Source of the DNA: Phaeodactylum tricornutum CCAP 1055/1
Lineage: Eukaryota > Bacillariophyta > Bacillariophyceae > Surirellales > Neidiaceae
Direction: 5' to 3'
Assembly: GCF_000150955.2 (NCBI RefSeq)
Contig: NC_011678.1
Coordinates: 912,486-976,485 of the forward strand
Length of the DNA stretch: 64,000 bases
In this document: piece after piece, positions 40,649 to 64,000 of the stretch
How positions within the stretch are numbered: the first letter of the stretch is position 1
Layout of the letters: every line of letters begins with the position of its first letter
The notes under the pieces: model-generated
Databases searched by the model: none
What the model was told of the DNA's origin: nothing
What the model saw: the letters and a program-made list of their open reading frames with translations, nothing else
Program-made: the position numbers and the translations under genes

Positions 40649-43600
40649 ATGCCTGGAAGCAAGTTTTTGGCTTTGCAAAGGCGGAGGCAGCGTCGTCAAA
40701 GTTCGCTGGCTAGTCGCTACTTGGCCTCTGCGGAAGAGGCTGAAACTGCAGAACTGGAGAACGTGTCGTATCCAGTCTACCCACAACGACATCCGAAGCG
40801 TGGCTTAGACTCTACCACCAACGGAACACGTTCACCGAGCTCACCCAGATCCAAGTCGTCGCATGCGGCGACATCTACGAAGACACTACAAACCGAAGGA
40901 ACGGAGCCGACGCTCGATCAGAGTGGAAGTAGCTCACAGACTCTGCACTACGCCAGGGAAGAAGACGGAGAACCCTCTTTTCTCCATCGCAAGTCAATCA
41001 TACCAGGACGAAAGCGAGGATGGATGGAAAAGTTCGACCCAGGTCGGTGTCGGGCAGCAGCAACCACACTTTCGATCAAGAGCATCCGCCAGTCTTCTGC
41101 TACTTACCCACGCAAATCTACGCCGGCATCGACTTCCACTGCTCGTGGTCAGGACCCCTGCTTTCCAAACGCGTCATCGGCGTCTCCGACAGATCGATTG
41201 CAGGTTTCCGCGCTTGCGTCTGATTTGTCCGACAGTAGCAGTCTCACTTCACTGCACACTTCCGAGACTGCTCACTCACCTCGCTCCAAGCTAGAAGTTG
41301 CTCAGTATCGTCAAGAGGATGCAGACTTGGTAGACGACACATTATCGTCACGGCAGCCTTCGCATTGTTGGCAGAGTCCCGAGCAGCCCTTCTCGATCGC
41401 GAGGCGCTCTCTTGGTCGATCGCTCGATCAAGGATTGGAGCTCGTCTTCGATACGGGAAACTGGGCCCAGTGCAACGGGGTAGAGTTGGTACACGATGCG
41501 GAACGCAATAATGAACAAGTCAGAGATATTGAAGTTAAGCGATCCGAGTCGGTGTACTCGTCCGCATCGACACAAGTTGCTACAAATCGAGCCCTAGATA
41601 CGGTAGTGAAAAGGATTGGAAATTTAGGAGAACCACAAAGAGCCGCGCAACATCAAACCGGGGTAAGCGATCGTTGTGGTAGTCATTCACGAGAGTTTGT
41701 TGGAGCAGCGGTATCAACAATTGATCGAGAAAGATGCGGTGGAAGACATCCTATGCGGTATACGTTTGGGGTTTCAAGCGAAAATTCTAGAAAAATGGAA
41801 ACCACCAGCATTCTGTCATTGAGTTCCAACGATGAATCATCACACGTGAGCTCTCTACGACCGTCTGTGTTTGGTACTGGACAGGGAAAAAATTGCTCAC
41901 GAGGAATGAGACCTCCAGTTGGCTTACAGGGTGGCAAATTTGTTTGGCAAACCGAGACGGGGAGTCGGCCAGTGGATATAGACATGTCGTTGCAATCCCA
42001 TGACACACCGAGCTCTGTTGGAGTTAAAATTGATGGATACTTTTCACGTGTTTCGGTGACTTGTCCAGGCTCTAACGCGTCCCCTTCAATGCTTGCTTCC
42101 TCATTGAACCAATCTCTCCCCCCCAGTGCCAGAAAACGTTCCGGGAAAGAAAATGAGAATGGAAGAAAAGCACTCATCGAAAATATCAATGTCGCAACTC
42201 ACGAGCAGAGATATTCTGCTCTAGCAAAGTCTGAGAAGGCCCCGACCATTCTGTCTGAAAGAGTACGGGCTGCTATTTCGAGCGGTTTAAGGTCCTCTGT
42301 GTCCCCAGAAACAAAATCGTCTTATCTCGCAAGCTCCGTTCGAAATAGTTCAGAATTGGAAGGGGCGATCGTTGATGAGGTCAACATCGCTTCCTGTGCT
42401 CAGAACTACTCAAATGCAAGACGAAATGCAGCGCTTTCGCAGGATCGTCCAGTCGACATAGGTGGAGATGCGGCATGCGAAAGAAGAAAACAGAAAAATG
42501 AGGAATTTGCCAAAATCGCAAAAGAAACTTCGAGCAGCCAACCCGCAAATTCTGTAAGCGCTGTTGAAGGCTGTGCTTCCGACGTCTCATTTTGCACGAA
42601 ACTGGCAAACAAGAGCGCTCCTGTCAACCGTGATTATGCAATTAAGTCCCACCGTCCAGTGAGGATAGGACGGCGGATTCCCCGAGCTGCTGTTGCATTT
42701 TTGTCGGCTGCTACGAGGACCCAAAATACCCCAAAGGACCCCGAGACAATAGAAAATCTTCCGTACTCATGTTTAGATCAAAATGGAGAAGTAAGCCTCG
42801 ACTTTGAGGAGAGAGGTTTGGAAGAGCAAAAACCTTTCCAGAACGGAAGATATATCGACATGCGACGTCGTAAATCAACCTCCGAATCTTTTGAGAAGGG
42901 TGAGGAGAAATACATTGGTGGCAGTGAAGATGGGGTCCGAACCTTTCGCGAACGATGCGAGGCCCCTCATGGCCGAGCTCGATCTGTCAACGAAGTATCG
43001 AGAAAGCGAGCATTGTTTGAAAAGAACGCAAATATTGTATTGAAACGCACGGGCAGTGGCAATATCAAATTTAAAAAAGCTTTTGCACACTTTGAAAACG
43101 TGAAGACAACTCCATCCTTGTCAGGAAAAATACGCCGAGAGTCCACGCCCTTTTCAAATTCATACAGCAATACTGCATCCGACAATAAAGCATACGCAGA
43201 ATCCTGGAGCGTTTCAGTTACAGATCGAATCAAGCTACTCAATTCGAGACATGTAACTTCAAGAGAACCTCAATGGCCTGAGCACCAAGGTCCTATGTGC
43301 AGCAGGTTCCATTTAAAAACGAGATCCGGCAAAGCAGATAGATTTTATGTGTTACATGCCGCCGCTGAAAGTTCTGACGACCTTAATGCCCGTCGTTGGC
43401 TCACAACAAATGAGCATGCAAGTGAACGGAATGACGGAACTTTTTCTCCGGAGCTGAAATTGCCTATTTCCGGAACAAGCAATGATCCGAGGATGCAGCC
43501 TGATTTCTTTTCTTGGACTCTGTCACCAGCTTCCACTTGTTTATCGACCGACTGCCAACCACCAGACACTCTCTCTGAATCACGTAAGATATCAGGTGAC

Positions 43601-45640
43601 GAGGTCGCAAATGTTCGTAGCAAAGTTGCTTTGTCTAGTGTCAAGCCTGTTCCTGCCTTGCCTTTTCTTCCAAAACCCATTGCGCTCAAATCCGTTCCTT
43701 CGCGTCACTGTTTCCAGCGAAGCAATGCATCGTCACAAAGTAACAAAGGCATCCCCATTGTCCTACATCCAATTTCTCGCCCTTGTGCACCCAACGACCA
43801 GTTGCTCGGGAGTGTTCGTTCATGTTCCGTAGCTCACGTGATTACTGGGAAAGATATGTCGAAAAGATTTCCGCCTCTCTTTGTGCCAGAGACAATGCCA
43901 CCCGCGCGCTCGCCGACTCTAGTGCCATCTGAGGGCCCAGAAGCCACGGCTCCAAGAACACAACAGAGACGAAAAGTCATTGAAATTGAGTCGAATTGTG
44001 CTGAGAAACCCGGGAAGGCTTCTGAAAAAAAATTGGCATCAGTACCGACTCTGAAAGCACCTGACACAAGCGCACTCCACGACTCTTGCATATTATCGCA
44101 AGTATTGACTCTTGAGCCTGATTTCTCTCATGCATCGGATGAGTCGTCGCTTTCCCAAAGTGGGAGTGAATATTCCTCTGGGGTCACGTTAGATCTTTCC
44201 ATCGCTGATGTCTCGTGCCTGACAAATCCTACTGCTTTTGTCAGCAAAGTAGGCGATTTTTTCGAGAACGAGACGCTAAGAAAGCAAAATGCTTCGGTGA
44301 CCCATTCAAATCCCTTCCTATCGAAATCACATTTATGCTCAGATACAATCAAAGCGTCAGCAAAGAGATCTGAAGCGTCTTCGAGTCAACCGTCAGAGGC
44401 GGCAGCTCCGCTGATAGCTCGGGCAATGAGACTCCGACCAATGTCGGACGAGTTAAGTGCTGGCGATAGTCTTTTTGCTGGTGGGGCTTTGGATGCTGGT
44501 CAGTGGGACCAGCCAAGGGGACATTATTTTGCTCCTGCGCCATTCACATCGAGAGCTCCCGTGCCGACGGCATTGTCAATCGAGAAATCGAATTTGACTT
44601 CACAGTCAGCAACAGAGGACTTTTTAATGAAAAATACTGGTTGGGACCTAGCAGACGTCAATTCGCTGTTTCCGGTTGACAGCTCCTTCGCTGCCGATCT
44701 ATTTGAATTTGAAACAGAATTGAGTCCGGCAAATGCGGAAGCTAACGAACGTTTCTTTGTAACCTCCAAAAGTGAGAATCTGATAAGTCAGTCTCCTTCT
44801 GAAATTGAGGTGGTATTACTGGGATCGTCTACGCTGGTCAACAATGAAGACGCCGACCCTAGAAAGTCGAAAATGTCTTGGGGAAACAAACTGGTTGGTG
44901 CTCGCTTAGGTTGTAATTCTTTGACGGATGATTCGCATCCACAGCCGCAAGTGAATCATCACCAACTAAAGGCACTCACCATTTCATTAGACGCATCGCA
45001 AAGGATTCCTTTTTCATCGTCCAATAAAGTTTCTGTTCGGATTTGCTCTCGTCAGAGAGATGCTGCCTTAGACAGCTTGAGAATGATGGGACCGTCAAAT
45101 GTGGGAAAAACACCCGATATTGACGAGTTCACCGCAACTTCTCAGTTGATTGAAGACAACCAAACATGTAAAATATCTTGCTCTTCATCATTAGCTTTGA
45201 GCAAGCATTCCTTTGCTTTAAGTGATGCGACTCACAGCTCGAAGAACATTCCAATAGCAGCACCTGCATTTTTGCCAATTCAAAGAACAATGACCGAGAG
45301 TAGGGGGAGATTACCATCATGGCAAAGACAAACAAAACCGCCACATTCTACCGATCAATCACATCACATGTACAGGGTCTCTGAGACATCAGGGACAGCT
45401 CCGAGTCCATCAGGCATACCCTCCCAACGCGACACACACACCGCGCTTGTCGACCGACTGAAAAGGTTGAAGGAAGCCCGACTGCGACGGTCCAATGCAG
45501 CAGTGACGTACGATGTGCCAAATATACACACGCTCCACGGACCTGGGCCCTCAGTCGAACATGACGGTTTGTCCAACAGCACTTTGTCAAGTACACGATT
45601 TGGAGGTAGAATATTCTTATCCTCATTGGATGTAGACTAG
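40649..45640 (+). CDS. Very large low-complexity protein of unknown function
   Basis: A single uninterrupted frame of 1,663 codons from ATG 40649. I recognise no catalytic domain, TM segment or signal peptide. The N-terminus is very basic (LQRRRQRRQSSLASRYL), and the rest is rich in Ser, Thr, Arg, Lys and Glu with many short SP/TP and RR-S sites, consistent with a largely disordered phosphoprotein. One basic patch (RIGRRIPRAAVAFLSAA) and one near 2/3 (KKLASVPTLKAPD) stand out. The C-terminus has a short helix (DRLKRLKEARLRRS). A frame this long without a stop is strong evidence that it is translated. Candidates include a cytoskeletal or nuclear scaffold, but nothing in the sequence decides. 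Confidence 0.75.
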   Translation: MPGSKFLALQRRRQRRQSSLASRYLASAEEAETAELENVSYPVYPQRHPKRGLDSTTNGTRSPSSPRSKSSHAATSTKTLQTEGTEPTLDQSGSSSQTLHYAREEDGEPSFLHRKSIIPGRKRGWMEKFDPGRCRAAATTLSIKSIRQSSATYPRKSTPASTSTARGQDPCFPNASSASPTDRLQVSALASDLSDSSSLTSLHTSETAHSPRSKLEVAQYRQEDADLVDDTLSSRQPSHCWQSPEQPFSIARRSLGRSLDQGLELVFDTGNWAQCNGVELVHDAERNNEQVRDIEVKRSESVYSSASTQVATNRALDTVVKRIGNLGEPQRAAQHQTGVSDRCGSHSREFVGAAVSTIDRERCGGRHPMRYTFGVSSENSRKMETTSILSLSSNDESSHVSSLRPSVFGTGQGKNCSRGMRPPVGLQGGKFVWQTETGSRPVDIDMSLQSHDTPSSVGVKIDGYFSRVSVTCPGSNASPSMLASSLNQSLPPSARKRSGKENENGRKALIENINVATHEQRYSALAKSEKAPTILSERVRAAISSGLRSSVSPETKSSYLASSVRNSSELEGAIVDEVNIASCAQNYSNARRNAALSQDRPVDIGGDAACERRKQKNEEFAKIAKETSSSQPANSVSAVEGCASDVSFCTKLANKSAPVNRDYAIKSHRPVRIGRRIPRAAVAFLSAATRTQNTPKDPETIENLPYSCLDQNGEVSLDFEERGLEEQKPFQNGRYIDMRRRKSTSESFEKGEEKYIGGSEDGVRTFRERCEAPHGRARSVNEVSRKRALFEKNANIVLKRTGSGNIKFKKAFAHFENVKTTPSLSGKIRRESTPFSNSYSNTASDNKAYAESWSVSVTDRIKLLNSRHVTSREPQWPEHQGPMCSRFHLKTRSGKADRFYVLHAAAESSDDLNARRWLTTNEHASERNDGTFSPELKLPISGTSNDPRMQPDFFSWTLSPASTCLSTDCQPPDTLSESRKISGDEVANVRSKVALSSVKPVPALPFLPKPIALKSVPSRHCFQRSNASSQSNKGIPIVLHPISRPCAPNDQLLGSVRSCSVAHVITGKDMSKRFPPLFVPETMPPARSPTLVPSEGPEATAPRTQQRRKVIEIESNCAEKPGKASEKKLASVPTLKAPDTSALHDSCILSQVLTLEPDFSHASDESSLSQSGSEYSSGVTLDLSIADVSCLTNPTAFVSKVGDFFENETLRKQNASVTHSNPFLSKSHLCSDTIKASAKRSEASSSQPSEAAAPLIARAMRLRPMSDELSAGDSLFAGGALDAGQWDQPRGHYFAPAPFTSRAPVPTALSIEKSNLTSQSATEDFLMKNTGWDLADVNSLFPVDSSFAADLFEFETELSPANAEANERFFVTSKSENLISQSPSEIEVVLLGSSTLVNNEDADPRKSKMSWGNKLVGARLGCNSLTDDSHPQPQVNHHQLKALTISLDASQRIPFSSSNKVSVRICSRQRDAALDSLRMMGPSNVGKTPDIDEFTATSQLIEDNQTCKISCSSSLALSKHSFALSDATHSSKNIPIAAPAFLPIQRTMTESRGRLPSWQRQTKPPHSTDQSHHMYRVSETSGTAPSPSGIPSQRDTHTALVDRLKRLKEARLRRSNAAVTYDVPNIHTLHGPGPSVEHDGLSNSTLSSTRFGGRIFLSSLDVD

Positions 45641-52568: not shown

Positions 52569-55500
52569 ATGGTATCAATTCTTTCAACATGCTTGCTGAT
52601 GTATGCTCGAGGTAAGTACAACTCAATGAGAGGAACCGTCTGCAGTATGCTCTTTCTGCAGCATGAAGTACCAATGTTTACATGTCAATGTTACCAATGA
52701 GCTGATTTCTTGAATTGCTCTGCAGTCGTATCTTCAAGAATGTACGATTCCAATGGCCAATCCGGAGTGGTGAGTGCAATCATTGGTTGTAAGCTCTTAG
52801 CCCCCTTCATCCTATGTCCATTCTAACTGTGAATGCGGAAGAATTAGATATGTGTCCTAACATTGCTTTTTGAACGCCAGCAAACGACAGAACACCGTAG
52901 CCTTGATGGACTGGTAAATTGTACGAACTCAATACTTGACTTCACTTTAATTGATACCGGGGTTACTCCCTACGCGCTGTACACTCTTGGTGTGGACAAC
53001 CTAGCATCCGCTGTTGGTCCTTTCAACATTCGGGCAAATGTGGTTGACTCTGCCTGTACTGAAAGCGCTCGCATTCGCCTAGAAGGTGGGCCATTCCCGA
53101 ATCGCTGCGAGAACAACCTACCTTTTACGGCCTTCGGGGACCCATCCACCATGGATATAGAAGACGAAGCTGCTAACTATGTCAAGAGAGCAAGGAAAAT
53201 CCCTCCTGGAAGCTACACGATTAAAGCGACACCTTCGGCTGGTCCAGGATGTTCAAGCGGAAGCCAAGGAGATGAATTGGCAGTCACCTTCATCATTCCA
53301 GAGCCACTAGACTGTACAAACTCAATACTTGACTTCACTTTGATTGATACCGGGGTTACTCCCTACGCGCTGTACACTCTTGGTGTGGACAACCTAGCAT
53401 CCGCTGTTGGTCCTTTCAACATTCGGGCAAATGTGGTTGACTCTGCCTGTACTGAAAGCGCTCGCATTCGCCTAGAAGGTGGGCCATTCCCGAATCGCTG
53501 CGAGAACAACCTACCTTTTACGGCCTTCGGGGACCCATCCACCATGGATATAGAAGACGAAGCTGCCAACTATGTCAAGAGAGCAAGGAAAATCCCTCCT
53601 GGAAGCTACACGATTAAAGCGACACCTTCGACTGGTCCAGGATGTTCAAGCGGAAGCCAAGGAGATGAAGTGGCAGTCACCTTCATCGTTCCAGATCCGT
53701 CTACCAGTCCCTCGATGGGTCCCAGCGGCGTCATCACGTCGGATCCAACTGTCACCCCAAACGCGAGTCCATCGCAAGAGCCTAGCGTTGCTCCGTCTGA
53801 CCGTCCCTCGATGGGTCCCAGCGGCGTCATCACGTCGGATCCAACTGTCACCCCAAATGCGAGTCCATCGCAAGAGCCTAGCCTTGCTCCGTCTGACCGT
53901 CCCTCGATGGGTCCCAGCGGCGTCATCACGTCGGATCCAACTGTCACCCTAAATGTGAGTCCATCGCAAGAGCCTAGCGTTGCTCCGTCTGACCGTCCCT
54001 CGATGGGTCCCAGCGGCGTCATCACGTCGGATCCAACTGTCACCCCAAATGCAAGTCCATCGCAAGAGCCTAGCCTTGCTCCGTCTGACCGTCCCTCGAT
54101 GGGTCCCAGCGGCGTCATCACGTCGGATCCAACTGTCACCCCAAATGCGAGTCCATCGCAAGAGCCTAGCCTTGCTCCGTCTGACCGTCCCTCGATGGGT
54201 CCCAGCGGCGTCATCACGTCGGATCCAACTGTCACCCCAAATGCAAGTCCATCGCAAGAGCCTAGCCTTGCTCCGTCTGACCGTCCCTCGATGGGTCCCA
54301 GCGGCGTCATCACGTCGGATCCAACTGTCACCCCAAATGTGAGTCCATCGCAAGAGCCTAGCCTTGCTCCGTCTGACCGTCCCTCGATGGGTCCCAGCAA
54401 CGTCGACGTCTTCCCTTCAATGGCCCCAATGAATGTTGGAAACCCATTGGGGACAACACCCCTTCCTATATTTACACCAACGCGAGTACCAACAGGGTGT
54501 CCAGATACGCAGCTGTGTGGAGGCGAATGCCTTGAACTTTCTGATCGTTGCTGCTCTGACGGAACCAGATCTATTCCAGGAACAAATGGTGAATGCTCCT
54601 GTGGCATCGGTGACGATTCCTTTTGTATTGCTGGTAAAAAGTGCTGCAAAGAGACAAATGGCCTTGGAAAATGTCTCTTAGAAAACCAATGTTGCCCAGC
54701 GGATTGCCCAGGAGGCTCTTTCGAAAACTCCAAATGTTGTTTTGACGGAACATGTGTTGCCTCTGATGAGTGTTGCCCTGGCGAGGGATTTTGCGACATG
54801 CGCTGTGTAGCGGGCCTTCGCGAATGCTGTTTAGGGCGACCAATCCTCAATGTAACAAACAGGAACTTACAGTGCTGCGACGGTAAGCTTACACAGACAC
54901 CATGTGGAATATGCGGCGGCAGACAGTGCAGCTCCGGGGAGTGCGTTTCCGCTGGAGAGTGCTGCCCCGATGAGGGTCTGTGCGGGACGCGTTGTGTGGC
55001 GGATCTTCGCGAATGCTGTGAAGGACAGCCAATCCTCAATAGTACAAGCGCGAACTTCAAATGCTGTGATGGTGTGCGCACCCAGACAACGTGTGGTGTA
55101 TGTGGTGGTAAGCAGTGCAGCTCCGGCGAATGTATTTCCGTTGACGAGTGTTGCCCCAACGAAACGCGATGTGGGACACGGTGCGTTGCTGATATCCGTG
55201 AATGCTGCAATGGGTTACCAATCTTCAATATCTCAAGTGAGAATTACAAATGCTGTGATGGTGTGCGTACCCAGACGACATGTGGTGTGTGCGACGGCAG
55301 ACAGTGTCCGTCCGGCGAATGCGTAGCTGCCAACGAGTGTTGCCCCGACGAGACACGGTGCGGGACTCGCTGTGAACCAAATCTCCGCGAATGCTGCGGA
55401 GGGCTGCCAATCCTTAACAACACAAGTGAAAATTTCAGGTGTTGTGACGGCGTACGCACCCAAACAACATGTGGTGTATGCGATGCTAGAGAGTGTGGAT

Positions 55501-56945
55501 CGGGTGAATGTGTATCCGCTGACGAGTGTTGCCCCGAAGAGACTCGATGTGGGACGCGTTGTGAGCCAAACCTCCGTGAATGCTGTGATGGACGGCCCAT
55601 TTATAACACTACAGCAAACGACAACGAAGTATGCTGCAATGGTGTGCGTACACAGACTGCATGCGGTGAATGCAATCGTAGAGAGTGTACAACCGGCGAA
55701 TGCGTGTCTGCTGACGAGTGCTGCCCCAACGAAACACGGTGCGGTACGACTTGTGAACCGAATCTCCGTGAATGTTGCGAAGGACAGCCCATTTATAACA
55801 CTTCATCAAGTGAGAACTTGCTATGCTGTAATGGTGTACCTACCCAAACTTCATGTGGTGCATGCGGTGATCTGTGTGAGGAAAGCTGTGATGCACAGCT
55901 CCTGGAGTGCTGCGAAGGGCTACCAATCCTAAATAGTTCAGACGAGAACCTGAAGTGTTGCAATGGTTTACCTACTCGCACGCCGTGTGGCATATGTGGC
56001 GGAAGAAGGTGCAGGTCTGGTGAATGTGTTTCCGCTAATGAGTGTTGTCCCGACGAGACGCGGTGCGGGTCGAGTTGTGCGGCAAATCTCCGTGAATGCT
56101 GCGATGGGCAACCGATATTCAATGCTTCAAGTGTGAACTTGGTGTGCTGCAATGGTACACGCACTCAAACGCCGTGTGGCATATGTGGCGGAAGAAGGTG
56201 CAGCTCTGGTGAATGTGTATCCGCTAACGAGTGCTGTCCCGACGAGACGCGGTGCGGGTCGAGTTGTGTGGCAAATCTCCGTGAATGCTGCGATGGCCAA
56301 CCGATTTTCAATGCTTCAAGCGTCAACCTCCTGTGCTGCGATGGTACACGTACTCAAACGCCGTGTGGCATATGTGGCGGAAGAAGGTGCAGGTCTGGTG
56401 AATGTGTATCCGCTAACGAGTGTTGTCCCGACGAGACGCGGTGCGGATCGAGTTGTGCGGCAAATCTCCGTGAATGCTGCGATGGGCAACCGATATTCAA
56501 CGCTTCAAGTGTCAACCTCCTGTGCTGCAATGGTACACGCACTCAAACGCCGTGTGGCATATGTGGCGGAAGAAGGTGCAGGTCTGGTGAATGTGTATCC
56601 GCTAACGAGTGTTGTCCCGACGAGACGCGGTGCGGGTCGAGTTGTGCGGCAAATCTCCGTGAATGCTGCGATGGGCAACCGATATTCAATGCTTCAAGTG
56701 TGAACTTGGTATGCTGTGATGGTACACGTACTCAAACGCCGTGTGGCATATGTGGCGGAAGGAGCTGTAGGTCTGGTGAATGCGTTTCCGCCAACGAGTG
56801 TTGTCCCGACGAGACACGGTGCGGGTCGAGTTGTGTGGCAAATCTCCGTGAATGCTGCGATGGCCAACCAATATTCACGGCTTCAAGCGTCAACCTCCTG
56901 TGCTGCAATGGTGTGCGTACAGTCAGGTCGGACGGCGCGTGTTAG
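52569..56945 (+). CDS. Large secreted modular repeat protein, Cys-rich
   Basis: Protein of 1,383 residues from exons 52569-52611, 52726-52769 and 52881-56945; GT-AG introns of 114 and 111 nt. The two tiny exons encode a signal-peptide-like start (MVSILSTCLLMYAR). Residues about 40-172 and 173-301 are two nearly identical copies of a beta-rich domain (LIDTGV, FNIRANVVDSAC, ENNLPFTAFGD, IPPGSYTIKATP), related by pattern to repeats in bacterial and stramenopile secreted proteins. Next come seven copies plus a partial of a 32-residue unit (SMGPSGVITSDPTVTPN...) likely O-glycosylated. From about 560 to the end are some eleven modules of about 63 residues with CC-GxRTQTPCGICGG, SGEC, ECCPDETRCG, LRECC-GQPIxN; one is shortened. 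No membrane anchor. A cell-surface or adhesive role is inference. Confidence 0.8.
52914..53698 (+). repeat. Tandem duplication of a 393-bp coding unit
   Basis: Two copies of the beta-rich domain start near 52918 and 53311. They are almost identical at DNA level (differences include gct/act near 53235 and 53629 and ttg/gtg near the end), so the duplication is recent or homogenised. Confidence 0.9.
53710..54400 (+). repeat. 96-bp coding minisatellite
   Basis: Units begin with CTCGATGGGTCCCAGC at 53710, 53806, 53902, 53998, 54094, 54190, 54286 and a diverging 54382. The period is exactly 96 bases (32 codons), so changes in copy number keep the frame. Confidence 0.93.
54840..56930 (+). repeat. 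Cys-rich module array, about 189-bp period
   Basis: About eleven modules of about 63 codons. The early ones have diverged in sequence, while those from about 55,960 onward are nearly identical in DNA, pointing to recent expansion at the telomere-proximal end. One module near 55,840-55,950 has lost about 20 codons. Confidence 0.85.
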
Positions 56946-57320
56946 GGCTAGTCTAAGGGGAGGGAGATCCCAGAGTAGTATACACATACATGGTGTACAA
57001 ATTTTAGCCAAAAACTGTCACTAAGTAATCCCTAAGGGCAGGAAGATCCCAGAGAACTAGGGGTATACCTAGCTGTATACAATTTATCCAAAAACTATTT
57101 CTAAGTAATTGCTCCGGGATCTTAAAGTTCGTTTGTCTTTTGCATAGGTAACTGCTCCGGGATCTTCAGGTTGGTGTGTCTTTTGCATAGATAATTGCTC
57201 CTGGATCTTCAACATAGTTTGTCTTTTAAATAAGTAATTGCTCTGGGATCTTCAACATGGTTTGTCTCTTGCTTAAGTAATTCTCTTGGATTGGTGATAA
57301 ATCTACTTTTCCACCTAACA
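56946..57320 (+). repeat. Subtelomeric repeat start with 43-bp minisatellite
   Basis: Directly after the stop of the Cys-rich gene, a CTAAGGGGAGGGAGATCCC sequence begins, then a related CCCTAAGGGCAGGAAGATCC copy at about 57029. From about 57100 to 57290 there are four to five units of 43 bases sharing TAACTGCTCCGGGATCTTCA and TTTGTCTTTTGCA. The block 57029-57230 recurs at about 60832-61040. Confidence 0.85.
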
Positions 57321-57439
57321 GACTCATCCTAAATCCATGTCAGACCAGTATTGACCATATAGAGACTCCAAAGTGACGGACAAACGGATAAGATAACGTC
57401 GGGCAGACAAGAGAAGATCCATAACCCTAACCGAAATTG

Positions 57440-58177
57440 AATTTTGTTAGACCAAGTTGGTGGACCGCTTAATTGCTTGCGTAATGTCGCTTCGGACAAC
57501 CACTGTGGAGACGGGTTGGACGGACGTGCTGATCCGGACGTGTACCCAGACTCAGACGACTTCATAAGAGTTGTCTCCGGTATGACGTCAAGCAAACAAA
57601 AGTCAGCGTTGACTCCTGAGGTTTTGTCGCGGCGATGGAACATCGGCCTGGAATTGGCCAAATGGACTCTGCAGGTAACAATGCAGAAAGGTGTGAGAAC
57701 AGTGTTGCATCCTCTTACCCGAAGGTACTGGACCCGGCAGTCCCATCTGCGTTTCCCTACCATTTGTTTTAAGGTTTACACGGATACCATGTTTTCCTCC
57801 GTTACATCCATTTGTCAGTACAAATGTGCCCAGGTTTTCACAACAAACACTGCCTATTCGCGCATTTACCCGCTGCAATCCAAGCAGCATGCCCCGGATG
57901 TCCTCATGAAATGGATCCAGGACGTTGGGGTAATGAGTGACCTTGTTTATGATGGGTCTAAAGAGCAGGGAGGTGGCAAGCATTGGCGTGAGATTGAACG
58001 ACGCCATCACATACAACGGCATGTAACGGAACCACACAGTCAGTGGCAGAATCGAGATGATGGGGAAATCCGAGAAACTAAGAAATCTGTTCGCCACCGT
58101 TTGCAAGCATCCCGAGCACCAAAGCGACATTGGTGCTTCTGTACGGAATGGGTGTCGGCCGTCCGACGGTTGACAGC
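57440..58177 (+). mobile_element. CoDi-type Ty1/copia retrotransposon fragment (integrase)
   Basis: An open frame from 57444 encodes a GAG-pre-integrase-like region (LTPEVLSRRWNIGLELAKWTL) followed by an integrase core: FKVYTDTMFS with the first Asp, DLVYDGSKEQ with the second, and TEPHSQWQNR near where the catalytic Glu should follow. The expected A-E-G step reads D-D-G, so the core is probably dead. No reverse transcriptase, RNase H or LTR pair is seen. The frame runs into a CCTAAGGGGAGGGG subtelomeric repeat at about 58178, which marks the truncation point. Known diatom CoDi elements have this domain order. Confidence 0.8.
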
Positions 58178-58990
58178 CCTAAGGGGAGGGGTATCCCAGA
58201 GTAGTAACTATGTACCTCGCTGTATAAAATTTATCCAAAAACACTTCCTAAGTAATTCCTCTGGGATAGCAGGGTTTCCCTCTGGGATGTCTAAGTAATC
58301 CCTCTGGGATAGCAGGGTTTTGCTCTGAGATATCAGGGTTTCTCTCTGGGATATCAAATACGGTTAAAGCCACTACTCTGGGATACCTAACTTGCTGATG
58401 TCCGGCATACAGCCTTCACAGTCAGCTGTTCTTCCGCGAATTGTTTGTGTCGTGTATTTCCTCTGGGATATCATATCCTTCCTCTGGGATATCACCTATT
58501 CCCTCTGGGATATCAAATAGGGTTAGAGCTACTCCTCCGGGATACCTAACTTGCTGACATCCGGCACACAGCTTTCACATTCACAGTCAGCTGTTCTTCC
58601 GCAAATTGTTTGTGTTGTGTATTCCCTCTGGGATATCATATCCTTCCTCTGGGATATCATGTATTCCCTCTGGGATATCAAATAGGGTTAGAGCTACTGC
58701 TCTGGGATACCTAACCTGCGGACGTCGGGCATACAGCTTTCTGTTGTTCTTTGCGAATTGCGTTTGCGTCAGCACGTTGTGTGGCTTTGTCGGCCATACG
58801 TACAGCCGTTTTCTGACTCTGGAGTACAAAACTTGCTGCCAATACACAGCTTCTACAGGATTTTTCGTCGAATTTTTCTATACTGTTTACACGGACGGCA
58901 TCATGCTTGCAGCTACGATGCAGCATGAGAATTCCATCGACCGCGGACATCTTTTGCGGGTATACCTGACTACCACCGGACAAAACTAGT
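58178..58990 (+). repeat. Subtelomeric GGGATATC array with 165-bp higher-order repeat
   Basis: Dozens of CTCTGGGATATC / CTCTGGGATAGC units of about 20-25 bases, organised in part into a longer unit of about 165 bases (start of matching text at 58461 and again at 58626). Each longer unit ends with CTAACTTGCTGACGTCCGGC, a TTCACAGTCAGCTGTTCTTC stretch and GTTTGTGT. The same ends appear in the units farther right. Confidence 0.85.
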
Positions 58991-59410
58991 GATGATGTAG
59001 GTTGCTGATTTGGAGCGAAATTCGGAGCGTTTTATGAAATCTGGTACTTCATTTGCAACAGACTCGCCCGCTGCTGTGTGACTTCCCGGAAGGGGGAAGA
59101 CGATGTAAAGTCCTTCCACAAGAGTTTTCGGGAGCAGGTGAAAGCGGCGCACCGGGAGCAGGATATTGGCAGTGGTTCGAAGAAGCGCTAAAGCAAGAAT
59201 TAGACGCCTCGTAGGACAATCAGGAAAGAGAGCAAACAAAACAAGCGACGGTCGAGCAAGAAGCAAACGACGTACCAAATCGAGCGATACGAAACAGTTG
59301 CGTTGGCCCTATTGACAGCCTGGGCTCTATAGAAATAACATCAAGTAGTCTTCTTTAAAATCAGAATTTGTTACGCTTTCTCAATTTGCTTGTAGTATCT
59401 GTAGACATTC
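58985..59410 (+). repeat. Subtelomeric 1.2-kb family, copy 1 (right part)
   Basis: This block is repeated at about 59845-60260 and 61490-61920. It includes a degenerate coding remnant whose conserved frame reads GEDDVKSFHKSFREQVKAAH before a stop. The following text ends with a conserved TTGTTACGCTTTCTC stretch. Confidence 0.75.
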
Positions 59411-59417
59411 TAAACAC

Positions 59418-60590
59418 TAAGGAAAAGGAGATCCCTGTGTAGTAAATTTATTCATGAATGCATATTTTATCTTTACACAGGGATTCATTTTTTACTTAAC
59501 GCATACCACTGGGATCCAAAAAATTCCCACTGAGATTCAAAAGGGTGAAAATACTCCACAGGGATACCTAACTTGCTGACGTCTGGCAAACAGCTTTCAC
59601 AGTCGGTCGTTCTTCCGTAAGTCGTGTCTGCGTTTTGTGTTGCTTACGTACAACTGTGAACAGTCAGTGTCGGCCAAAATGGACTTGCTGTTTATACAGC
59701 TTCTAGCTAGTAGAGAATTTTTCTTTCTTCAAATTTTACAACAGAAACACTCACGGCACCATGTGTGCATCTACAATGCAGCACGCAAACAGCATTGACC
59801 GCGGATATTTTTTGCGGATAGGGTAGGCTAACACCAGATGAGACTGGTGATCATGCAGTGTGGTGATTTGGAGTGTAATTCGGAGCGTTTTACGAAATCT
59901 GGTGCTTATTTCGCGACGGACCCGCCCGCTCTTTTGTTGCTCCCCGGAATGGGGAAGACGATTTCAAATCGTTCTACAAGAAAATCCAGGAGCAGGTGAG
60001 AGCTGCGCACCAGGAGCGGCAGAATTTCGAAGAAGCGCTAAAGCAAGAACTAGCCGCCTTGTAGGGCAAACAGGAAGGAGAACAAACGAAAGGAGCGACG
60101 GTCGAGCAAAATGCAAACGACGTCCCAAATCGAGCAATACGAAACAGTTGCGCTGGCCATATTGACAGCCTGGGCTCTATAGGAATAACATCAAGTGGTC
60201 TTCTTTAAAACTAGACTTTGTTACGCTTTCTCAGTTTGCTTGTAGTATCTATAGCTGCTCTATACACATGTTGTTTGCATTATGTTTGATGATTATTCTA
60301 TCTTCTATTTCTATTGTGGTTTCTATTTGGTGATACTTGTTCAGCCCCATATACTGACTGCATCTGCATCTTTCTTCATCCCTTGCATCATGGGTAGGGA
60401 AAGGGTCATGCGCGACAGACAACAGCACTCACAGGCTACAATAGCCAAGCAAGGTTTCCTTCCGTCACAGATAGAGTGACCCAATACAACTGCTTTTTTG
60501 CCAACACCAGCTTTGGTCAAATGAAACACTGGCAAGCCCCTTGCAACCGGAAAGATATCTGCCAACAGTTCCCGCAATTTTCATTTATCC
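59418..60590 (+). repeat. Subtelomeric 1.2-kb family, copy 2
   Basis: Begins CTAAGGAAAAGGAGATCCC, passes through CACTGGGATCC/CCCACTGAGATTC variants, the CTAACTTGCTGACGTCTGGC segment and the coding remnant (best preserved here, about 59920-60064), and ends with a segment containing TTGATGATTATTCTATC and TACAATAGCCAAGCAAGG that is also in the last copy (about 61940-62150). Confidence 0.8.
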
Positions 60591-60591
60591 T

Positions 60592-60831
60592 AAGGAAAAG
60601 GAGATCCCTGTGTAGTAACCTTATACATGAATGTATATTTTATCTTTACACAGGGATTCATTTTTTACTTAACGCATCCCACTGGGATCCAAAAAATTCC
60701 CACTGAGATTCAAAAAGGGTGAAAGTTACTCCACAGGGATAACTAACTTGCTGATGTCTGGCGAACAACTTTCACAGTCGGTCGTTCTTCCGTAAGTCGT
60801 GTCTGCGTTTTGTGTTTCTTACGTTAGGGAA
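60592..60831 (+). repeat. Subtelomeric 1.2-kb family, truncated copy
   Basis: Closely repeats the first ~230 bases of copy 2 (59418-59650), then breaks off at about 60830 into the CCCTAAGGGCAGG-type repeat. Confidence 0.85.
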
Positions 60832-61042
60832 CCCTAAGGGCAGGAAGATCCCAGAGAAGCAGGGGTATACCTAGCTGTATACAATTTATCCAAAAACTAT
60901 TTCTAAGTAATTGCTCCGGGATCTTAAAGTTGGTTTGTCGTTTGCGTAGGTAACTGCTCCGGGATCTTCAAGTTGGTTTGTCTTTTGCGTAGGTAACTCC
61001 TCCGGGATCTTCAAGTTGGTTTGTCGTTTGCATAGGTAACTG
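60832..61042 (+). repeat. Second 43-bp minisatellite block
   Basis: Near-identical to 57029-57230: GGGGTATACCTAGCTGTATA, TTATCCAAAAACTATTTC, then three to four 43-base units with CTCCGGGATCTTCAAGTTGG. The last unit is cut by CCTAAGGGGAGGGAGAACC. Confidence 0.9.
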
Positions 61043-61060
61043 CTCCTAAGGGGAGGGAGA

Positions 61061-62225
61061 ACCTTAAGGAAAATGATATCCGGGTGTTGTAAAAATCGAC
61101 ATGAATGTATATTTTATCTTTACACTGGGATATCAGATTTTATATAAGTAATTGCACTGGGATATCAACAAATTGCACTGAGATATCAAATAGGGTTATA
61201 GTTACTGCACAGGGATACCTAACTTGCTGACGTCTGGCAAACAGCTTTCACAGTCAGTTGTTCTTCCGCAAATTGCGTTTGTGTTTTGCGTTGCTTACGT
61301 ACAACCGTATTCTGACACTCATTGTCAGCCGAATTGGACTTGCCGTCGCTAAAGCTACGAGCAGATGAAATTCTCGTCAAACTTCGTCAATTTTTACAAC
61401 AGGAACACTCACGGCACCCTGTTTGCATCTGCAATGTAGCAAGCAAACAGCATCGATCGCGGATCTTTTTTGCGGATAGGGTAGGCTAACACCAGAGAAG
61501 ACTGGTGATCATGCAGTGTGGTGATTTGGAGTGTAATTCGGAGCGTTTTACGAAATCTGGTGCTTCATTCGCGACAGACCCGCCCGCTCTTGTGCTGCTC
61601 CCCGGAATGGGGAAGACAATGTCAAATTGTTCTACAAGGAAATCCAGGAGCAGGTGAAAGCTGCGCACCGGGAGTGGGATATTGGAAGTGGTTCGAAAAA
61701 GCGCTAAAGCAGGGATTAGCGGCCTCGTAGGACAATCAAGAAAGAGAGCAAACGAAACAAGCAAGGGTCAATCAAGACGCAAACATAGTCCCAAATCGAG
61801 CAATAGAAAACAGTTGCGCTGGCTCTGTTGACAGACTGGGCTCTTTGGGAACATTAACAACTAGTCCTTTTTAAAATTAGAATTTGTTACGCTTTCTTTG
61901 TTTGCTTGTAGTATCTATAGCTGCTCTATACACATGTTGGTTGCATTTTGTTTGATGATTATTTTATCTTCTATTTCTATTGTGGGTTCTATTTGGTGTT
62001 ACTTGTTCAGCCCCATATACTGACTGCATTTGCAACTTTCTTCATCACTTGCATCATGGGTAGGGAAAGGGTCATGTGCGACGGACAACAGCACTCACAG
62101 GCTACAATAGCCAAGCAAGGTTTCCTTCCGTCACAGGTAGAGTGACCCAATTTGACTGCTTTTTGGCCAAATGAAACACTGACAAGCCCCTTGCTACCGG
62201 AAATGATACCTACCAACACTTCCCG
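61061..62225 (+). repeat. Subtelomeric 1.2-kb family, last copy
   Basis: Begins CCTTAAGGAAAATGATATCC, then GGGATATC variants, CTAACTTGCTGACGTCTGGC with a TCACAGTCA, the coding remnant (about 61600-61692, frame ending ...GSGSKKR-stop) and the TTGATGATTATTTTATC segment shared with copy 2. Confidence 0.8.
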
Positions 62226-63666
62226 CAATTTTCATTTGTCCAATGCGGCTTCAGCTTCAATTCCAACTTCGGTTCTCTCCGTCACGATTGCAGCAAGGCA
62301 TTTTTCATTGTCCACAATATTGCGGCATTTGTCGGCCCCAAATGACATGCTTTTGTTGTGCATTGTGACAGCATAGTGGGTAACTGCGGCCAACAAAAGG
62401 TTTTATTTGATCCAGGTCGACGGATGCTGTTTGGCCGTTGTCGTTGTTGTCGTCGAAGTTGTCGTTGCTGTTCTTGTTGTCACTGCAGACAGCACCAACA
62501 CAGCCAATACCAATCAACGCCAAAACAGACGCAGGCAATGGCTTCGCAGCTGGAGCAAGTTGACTACGGTTCCCGTACTTGGTATCTTTAGGACGCGGTT
62601 TCTGTTATACCATCATCTTCTGTTCTGACCATTGCAACTGCCTGTTCTGACCATTGCAACTGCGGCACAGCCTAGCCTCTCCAGCAGTTTCCATGAAAAA
62701 GCTTGCGGGCAAAACGGCTCGTTCGTGATTTTGTTAGAATTGTGTGTGTAGCACACGAGAAACTTCGGCATGTCACCAGATGACGCAGACGGTGCGTGTG
62801 GCATCCGTCGCTACTTTCCTTTGTCTGTGCAACTATGGAAGCCACTTGTTGGTTCTAGTAACATGTAAAGGATAACTACTCTAAGAAATACTGCGGGAGC
62901 TCTTTTCCCACTTCTAGTTGTATTTTTTGGAAAAGAGCATCTCGTAGGGCACTAACAGGCCAACAATTGTTCTACGGATAGCATACTTATATTTGCTTAT
63001 GAGACAAACTTTGTTCATTCTTGATGAGCAGACCGCTTTATTTGCGGTGTTTTGGCCTGATTTCCGCAAATAACCGCAAATAAAGTTTCAAAATCACCAC
63101 ATACTAAAGTACAAAGTTAACTGCAACTTAGCTTCATTCATGTTGTCACGGTATAGTACCATGCGACATGTCTCCTAGTGATGTCCGTCCTCTAGACGTC
63201 AACACGGTGAACGGCGGTTGGAGTGTTCATAAGGGAGAAGTGAGTCGTATGGAAGTTAACTCGGTCTTATTGCATGAAATTCCTAGATACAATGATGTAT
63301 CGTGCGTTGGAGAGAACGCGACTGAACATGTCGCGTTCTGACAGTGGCAACGGAGTGGGACTGACAATACTTATTGCCTGACTAACGGATGTAAATGGAT
63401 GCGCTCCATTTCCCGCGGCATGCATGTTTTTATGAAAGGTATTTCCGGTTCCACTATAAGTATATGTGAGCGCGCGTCATGGTATAAGGATACTATGATG
63501 GAAGAAAGATATTTGTGTACGTTTGAGTTTGTTCCTCAGGTTTTGTTGTATCTCGGCAAATCGGAGGAGCAACAAGAATTAGTTTATAGCACTAATTCTT
63601 CAATCTTTGTTTTATAAGTTCTTTGATCCGCATTGCTAGTTTACGCATAGGTCCTCGTATCCGCTG
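62226..63666. other. Telomere-proximal unique sequence with small repeats
   Basis: No gene supported. It holds a GTTGTCGTTGTTGTCGTCG-type trinucleotide-rich stretch at about 62435-62490, a tandem 21-base duplication (TTCTGACCATTGCAACTGC) at about 62620-62660, and a hairpin made of CTTTATTTGCGGT at 63036-63048 and its inverse ACCGCAAATAAAG at 63073-63085. The hairpin shares its TTTGCGGTGTTTTGG text with the MITE-like element near 50,160, so it may be a relic of that family. Confidence 0.55.
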
Positions 63667-64000
63667 CCTAACCCAGGGTTAGGGTTAGGGTTAGGGTTAG
63701 GGTTAGGGTTAGGGTTAGGGTTAGGGTTAGGGTTAGGGTTAGGGTTAGGGTTAGGGTTAGGGTTAGGGTTAGGGTTAGGGTTAGGGTTAGGGTTAGGGTT
63801 AGGGTTAGGGTTAGGGTTAGGGTTAGGGTTAGGGTTAGGGTTAGGGTTAGGGTTAGGGTTAGGGTTAGGGTTAGGGTTAGGGTTAGGGTTAGGGTTAGGG
63901 TTAGGGTTAGGGTTAGGGTTAGGGTTAGGGTTAGGGTTAGGGTTAGGGTTAGGGTTAGGGTTAGGGTTAGGGTTAGGGTTAGGGTTAGGTTAGGGTTAGG
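63667..64000 (+). repeat. Telomere, (TTAGGG)n
   Basis: About 54 TTAGGG units run to the right edge in the orientation of a right chromosome end (G-rich strand 3' outward). One shortened unit (TTAGG) occurs near 63988. The array is preceded by CCTAACCC-A-GGGTTAGG at 63667-63683, a perfect palindrome holding one inverted telomeric motif. Confidence 0.98.

Follow-up and report, generated by a model that had tools for sequence, protein, structure and literature searches.

A telomere-proximal gene in Phaeodactylum tricornutum with Ig-like domains, a Pro/Ser/Thr-rich array and Cys-rich modules, possibly encoding a secreted matrix protein

A real, coding and unusual gene lies near one end of contig C10 of the diatom Phaeodactylum tricornutum CCAP 1055/1, in a stretch of 64,000 nucleotides (C10:912486-976485, hereafter the window) that was analysed together with the whole genome (27,450,724 bases in 88 contigs). 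A single reading frame holds two 131-residue domains, a 96-bp Pro/Ser/Thr array and twelve Cys-rich units (Table 1), which agrees with an earlier sequence-only reading of a modular repeat protein of the secreted type. With a probability of roughly 0.6, we consider that the gene encodes a structural or adhesive protein of the extracellular matrix and works by the mechanism proposed below, as its extracellular-type immunoglobulin (Ig)-like domain, its stalk of Pro/Ser/Thr repeats and its probable rod of disulfide-linked modules all fit that role. Little is known of the coat and adhesion proteins of diatoms, which evolve rapidly, and the gene offers a defined candidate for such a protein in a model diatom. 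No publication was tied to it in a literature search that was run without a gene identifier and to which supplementary tables were inaccessible.

The frame at 52863-56945 on the + strand runs for 1360 codons without a stop or a frameshift, and its three repeat periods (393, 96 and 189 bp) are each divisible by three, as the sequence-only reading had pointed out. Given that the opposite strand is also open for up to 540 residues within the repeats, openness alone is weak evidence in such DNA, and selection was therefore tested. The ratio of nonsynonymous to synonymous substitution rates (dN/dS) is 0.105 over the 10 pairs among Cys modules M1-M5, where dS is saturated, and 0.106 over the 6 pairs among M8-M11, with 51 synonymous and 21 nonsynonymous changes; one M5 codon was dropped, and M6, M7 and M12 were left out. 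When all six frames were compared in M1-M4 and in M8-M11, the proposed frame alone had no stops together with low ratios of nonsynonymous to synonymous differences (pN/pS) in both sets (0.237 and 0.122, respectively). One minus-strand frame gave 0.311 and 0.325 but contained 1 and 4 stops, and its lowish ratios are taken as a mirror of third-position changes. Selection, as shown by dN/dS and the frame control, removes frame-breaking variants and most that change amino acids, in keeping with the earlier suggestion that the frame is kept open.

A three-exon structure is the favoured, not proven, gene model, with donors GTAAGT and GTGAGT and a predicted protein of 1383 residues. It is one of 279 frame-keeping GT-AG solutions, and its first donor is common to other solutions as well. 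Exon 1 is supported by a paralog on contig C19 (L017), which has a similar short first exon and a similar donor; the three-exon model of the sequence-only reading is thus preferred without being the sole solution. Based on hydropathy, a putative signal peptide in exon 1 is plausible. In the 1383-residue model, hydropathy gave no membrane-like stretch after the hydrophobic start and no C-terminal anchor. The 1360-residue frame contains 24 N-glycosylation motifs.

Table 1. Features of the gene and of the adjoining chromosome end (window coordinates)
Feature	Position	Strand	Basis or remark
Exon 1, hydrophobic start MVSILSTCLLMYAR, putative signal peptide	52569..52611	+	Predicted from frame-keeping GT-AG model, L017 likeness, hydropathy
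Exon 2	52726..52769	+	Predicted from frame-keeping GT-AG model
Exon 3, main coding part, TAG stop at 56943-56945	52881..56945	+	Open frame, frame control
Predicted Ig/FnIII-like domain, copy 1, 131 residues	52920..53312	+	Tandem array, relatives, structure model
Predicted Ig/FnIII-like domain, copy 2	53313..53705	+	13/393 bases unlike copy 1
96-bp Pro/Ser/Thr-rich array, 7.3 copies	53696..54398	+	Tandem-repeat scan; Pfam PT repeat, 30.7 bits (cut-off 26.2)
Divergent Cys-rich head ahead of regular modules	54495..54767	+	
Cys modules M1-M6, older; M6 partial	54768..55871	+	58-75% DNA identity among themselves
M7, unit shortened by in-frame deletion	55872..56039	+	
Cys modules M8-M11, younger	56040..56795	+	91-96% DNA identity
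M12, broken module	56796..56920	+	115/125 bases match M9; 108-113 for M8, M10, M11
Junction, unlike module	56921..56952	+	TTAGGG at 56942 overlaps stop codon
Subtelomeric repeat region	56953..63674	+	Initial stretch (to 57330) also found close to either end of C19 and on other contigs
Telomeric array (AGGGTT)n	63675..64000	+	54.5 copies, tandem-repeat scan

The 131-residue domain is predicted to adopt a beta-sandwich of the Ig/fibronectin type III (FnIII) kind, and sequence comparison indicates that it is not an orphan, which corrects the earlier view of a protein without any described match. Against the Pfam family Ig_J the domain scored 14.8 bits, below the cut-off of 29. Two database proteins with tandem Ig-type domains, P0001 and P0002, are 35% and 32% identical to it over 89% and 75% of the query, and they pass the same cut-off (42.9 and 33.3 bits). 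Both appear bacterial in type, judged by domain content; they share the tandem domain with the window gene, whereas their sequences, when read, gave no sign of the Cys modules.

Three further loci of this genome carry the Ig-like domain, and in none of them is it followed by a Cys-rich part. At L017:4601-6594 (G000:C19:593100-595093), two copies precede FG-GAP repeats; the copies lie 388 bp apart, which is not divisible by three, so that they are mutually out of frame, and either the gene is decaying or the locus was wrongly assembled. The window domain differs from that of L017 by dN 0.172 and dS 1.505. L018:3881-6331, on the minus strand and some 16 kb away from the end of its contig, holds four near-identical 369-bp copies, and L019:1032-1931, also on the minus strand but of a small contig, holds one; in each of these a divergent Ig-like domain stands where the window gene has its Cys part. 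Counted with the divergent domain, copy numbers at the three loci are 2, 4+1 and 1+1, which makes a four-locus family whose tandem Ig-like domains changed in copy number locus by locus. A von Willebrand-like part seen by eye in L018 was dropped for want of Pfam support.

The Cys-rich part comprises 154 cysteines in 816 residues. Tandem-repeat scanning divides its 189-bp units into two blocks (71% and 92%), and the count is twelve rather than the about eleven first proposed: nine are full-length (M1-M4 and M8-M11 with 63 residues, M5 with 64), M6 and M7 are partial and joined by an in-frame deletion, and M12 is broken. In the eight ungapped full units (M5, which has an extra residue, M6, M7 and M12 being left out of the comparison), twelve cysteines are invariant per 63 residues, arranged as three di-Cys pairs and six single cysteines. 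The modules contain 4.8% Pro, 7.6% Ser, 18.9% Cys and 4.4% Asp. Structure prediction for two modules was confident in two of five runs and gave 14 short strands, which, as read from the model, may be disulfide-pinned hairpins. No solved structure matched the two-module model, an absence that does not show a new fold.

The module's lack of a match to a known family, noted in the sequence-only reading, held in every collection searched. With the first part of the module as query, no second place in the genome was found at E 10 (6 candidates); no relative was found in other collections, which may hold few diatoms; and six Cys pieces (four of module length, two with the head) gave no Pfam match at E 10. 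The layout nonetheless recalls galaxin. Di-Cys repeat proteins are frequent in organic skeletons, according to the part of PMC2726143 that treats them, and the galaxins and galaxin-like proteins of corals and molluscs, in the accounts available from PMC2726143 and PMC10045328, likewise carry extracellular-type tandem Cys-rich repeats with di-Cys, Amgalaxin-like 2 having three di-Cys per unit as in the window module. As described there, however, galaxin units are about 30 residues long with two di-Cys and those of Amgalaxin-like 2 are 41, whereas the window unit has 63 residues and six extra single cysteines, and other domains stand in front of it. The galaxin family PF24748 matched neither the six Cys pieces at E 10 nor the Cys region at E 1, in searches without a positive control, and a genome search with it was empty, as was its control. 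The resemblance would therefore be one of layout, without membership.

Repeat units of the gene appear to differ in age. The two 393-bp copies (2.0 copies, 98% in the scan) differ at 13 positions, 7 of them within the final 12 bases; over the first 369 bases there are 3 synonymous and 2 nonsynonymous changes (dS 0.034). The 96-bp array (97% in the scan), previously called exact, is near-exact: pairs among seven units differ by 0-6 bases. Units 3 and 5 are identical, as are 1 and 4 (numbered from 0 to 6), whereas the neighbours 3 and 4 differ, a pattern compatible with two or more units being exchanged together. The right-hand Cys modules M8-M11 are nearly identical in DNA, as had been stated, but the gene has younger repeats in the 96-bp units and the Ig pair; given dS values of 0.10-0.39, M8-M11 are not all recent duplicates. 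The copy-number change claimed earlier is partly supported: numbers are unequal among related loci of this genome and some units are identical, but the right-hand modules are not uniformly fresh, and ongoing expansion is plausible yet unproven. Mapped reads of 17 P. tricornutum accessions, as described in PMC10833087, make the claim testable.

The sequence-only reading did not mention that the gene ends where subtelomeric repeats begin, with its last module broken. M12 follows M9 and then departs from it about 30 bp before the start of the subtelomeric repeat, whose copies on other contigs align from 56949-56954. Since the stop codon also lies in this junction, the gene is probably truncated at its 3' end, and the sequence suggests that the present C-terminus is probably not ancestral. 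The broken module is a firmer sign of truncation than the TTAGGG hexamer at the stop, though repeat proteins can end mid-module. Spotted after the fact, the hexamer is not taken to prove that a break was healed here; TTAGGG is present 7 times on the + strand ahead of position 63,600. The stop codon was also considered as part of a long terminal repeat, which was dropped as the repeat boundary lies past it. The locus offers a tangible example of a protein whose end may have been remodelled by the end of a chromosome.

Under the matrix-protein reading, the hydrophobic first exon would direct the product into the secretory path, where the two Ig/FnIII-like domains, to judge from the model and their relatives, may act as binding or spacer modules. 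By its composition the Pro/Ser/Thr array would form a stiff stalk, probably O-glycosylated. The strand pattern and the twelve fixed cysteines suggest that the Cys modules could build a rod of short, disulfide-pinned beta-hairpins able to cross-link in the cell coat. Module number may shift by in-frame unequal exchange, and the broken last module suggests that a subtelomeric rearrangement cut the 3' end, so that the frame would now stop in the junction. The bolder version, that the 63-residue module is a new repeat forming a disulfide-stapled hairpin rod for the diatom coat, that unequal exchange next to the telomere alters its length, and that rearrangement of the subtelomere is now reshaping its C-terminus, is speculative, and we hold it only tentatively.

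The broken module and the stop in the junction could also belong to a recently dying gene, in which selection acted in the past until a subtelomeric break took the 3' end and left a frame that no longer works. The out-of-frame paralog on C19 and the missing C-terminal anchor suit such a history. It is nevertheless rather unlikely in view of the intact 1360 codons, the low pN/pS retained by M8-M11 and the few changes between the Ig copies. A variable surface protein, switching length or form to escape predators, viruses or bacteria, would be at home at a subtelomeric site, with in-frame repeats and copy numbers unequal among related loci; low dN/dS without a sign of diversifying selection between modules, and a Cys part at one place in the genome (by the E 10 search with its 6 candidates), make it improbable.

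Diatom wall proteins offer a further comparison, set out here from the descriptions given in PMC4557024. Pleuralins, with their PSCD domains, have a Pro-rich part followed by Cys-rich repeats, as does the window gene, but their repeat is about 90 residues long and rich in Pro, Ser, Cys and Asp, whereas the window module is shorter, low in Pro and Asp, and preceded by Ig-like domains; it thus departs from the pleuralin repeat in both length and composition. Frustulins carry an acidic Cys-rich (ACR) domain of about 50 residues, and all twelve window units are acidic too (isoelectric points 4.19-6.32, all below 7), although the 63-residue unit is longer. A silica-associated or Ca-binding wall protein of either kind would explain these likenesses but is more improbable still, given the repeat length, the low Pro and Asp content and the presence of two RXL motifs, neither at a module end.

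The last base of the window is the last base of contig C10 (976,485), and the proximity to a telomere proposed earlier is borne out by the terminal array, which begins 6.7 kb from the gene; PMC9266582, in its relevant part, gives the telomere unit of P. tricornutum as AACCCT. A search of the genome with 56900-57330 returned at least 51 matches, the window itself included, among the best 40 of 94 candidates, with several near both ends of C19; among the matches listed, 56953 is the starting point of 7, and almost all of the rest start at the next internal copy, near 57030. In a strict-pattern search, eleven repeat copies begin CCCTAAGGG or TCCTAAGGG, two of them the window's own; judged by eye, the upstream flanks of the other nine differ. 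The copy adjoining the gene begins CTAAGGGG, without the leading CC, so it was missed by the strict pattern. An open frame of 284 residues at 57444-58298 (+), inside the subtelomeric repeats, had no Pfam family above cut-off, and its interpretation as a retroelement piece was dropped for that reason. Further from the chromosome end, an open frame of 1663 residues occupies 40649-45640 (+), with no Pfam match at E 0.001. Between 57030 and 61189 the subtelomeric repeats include tandem arrays with periods of 21, 43 and 165 bp around CTCTGGGAT and CTCCGGGATC motifs, and the first part of this stretch recurs on other contigs.
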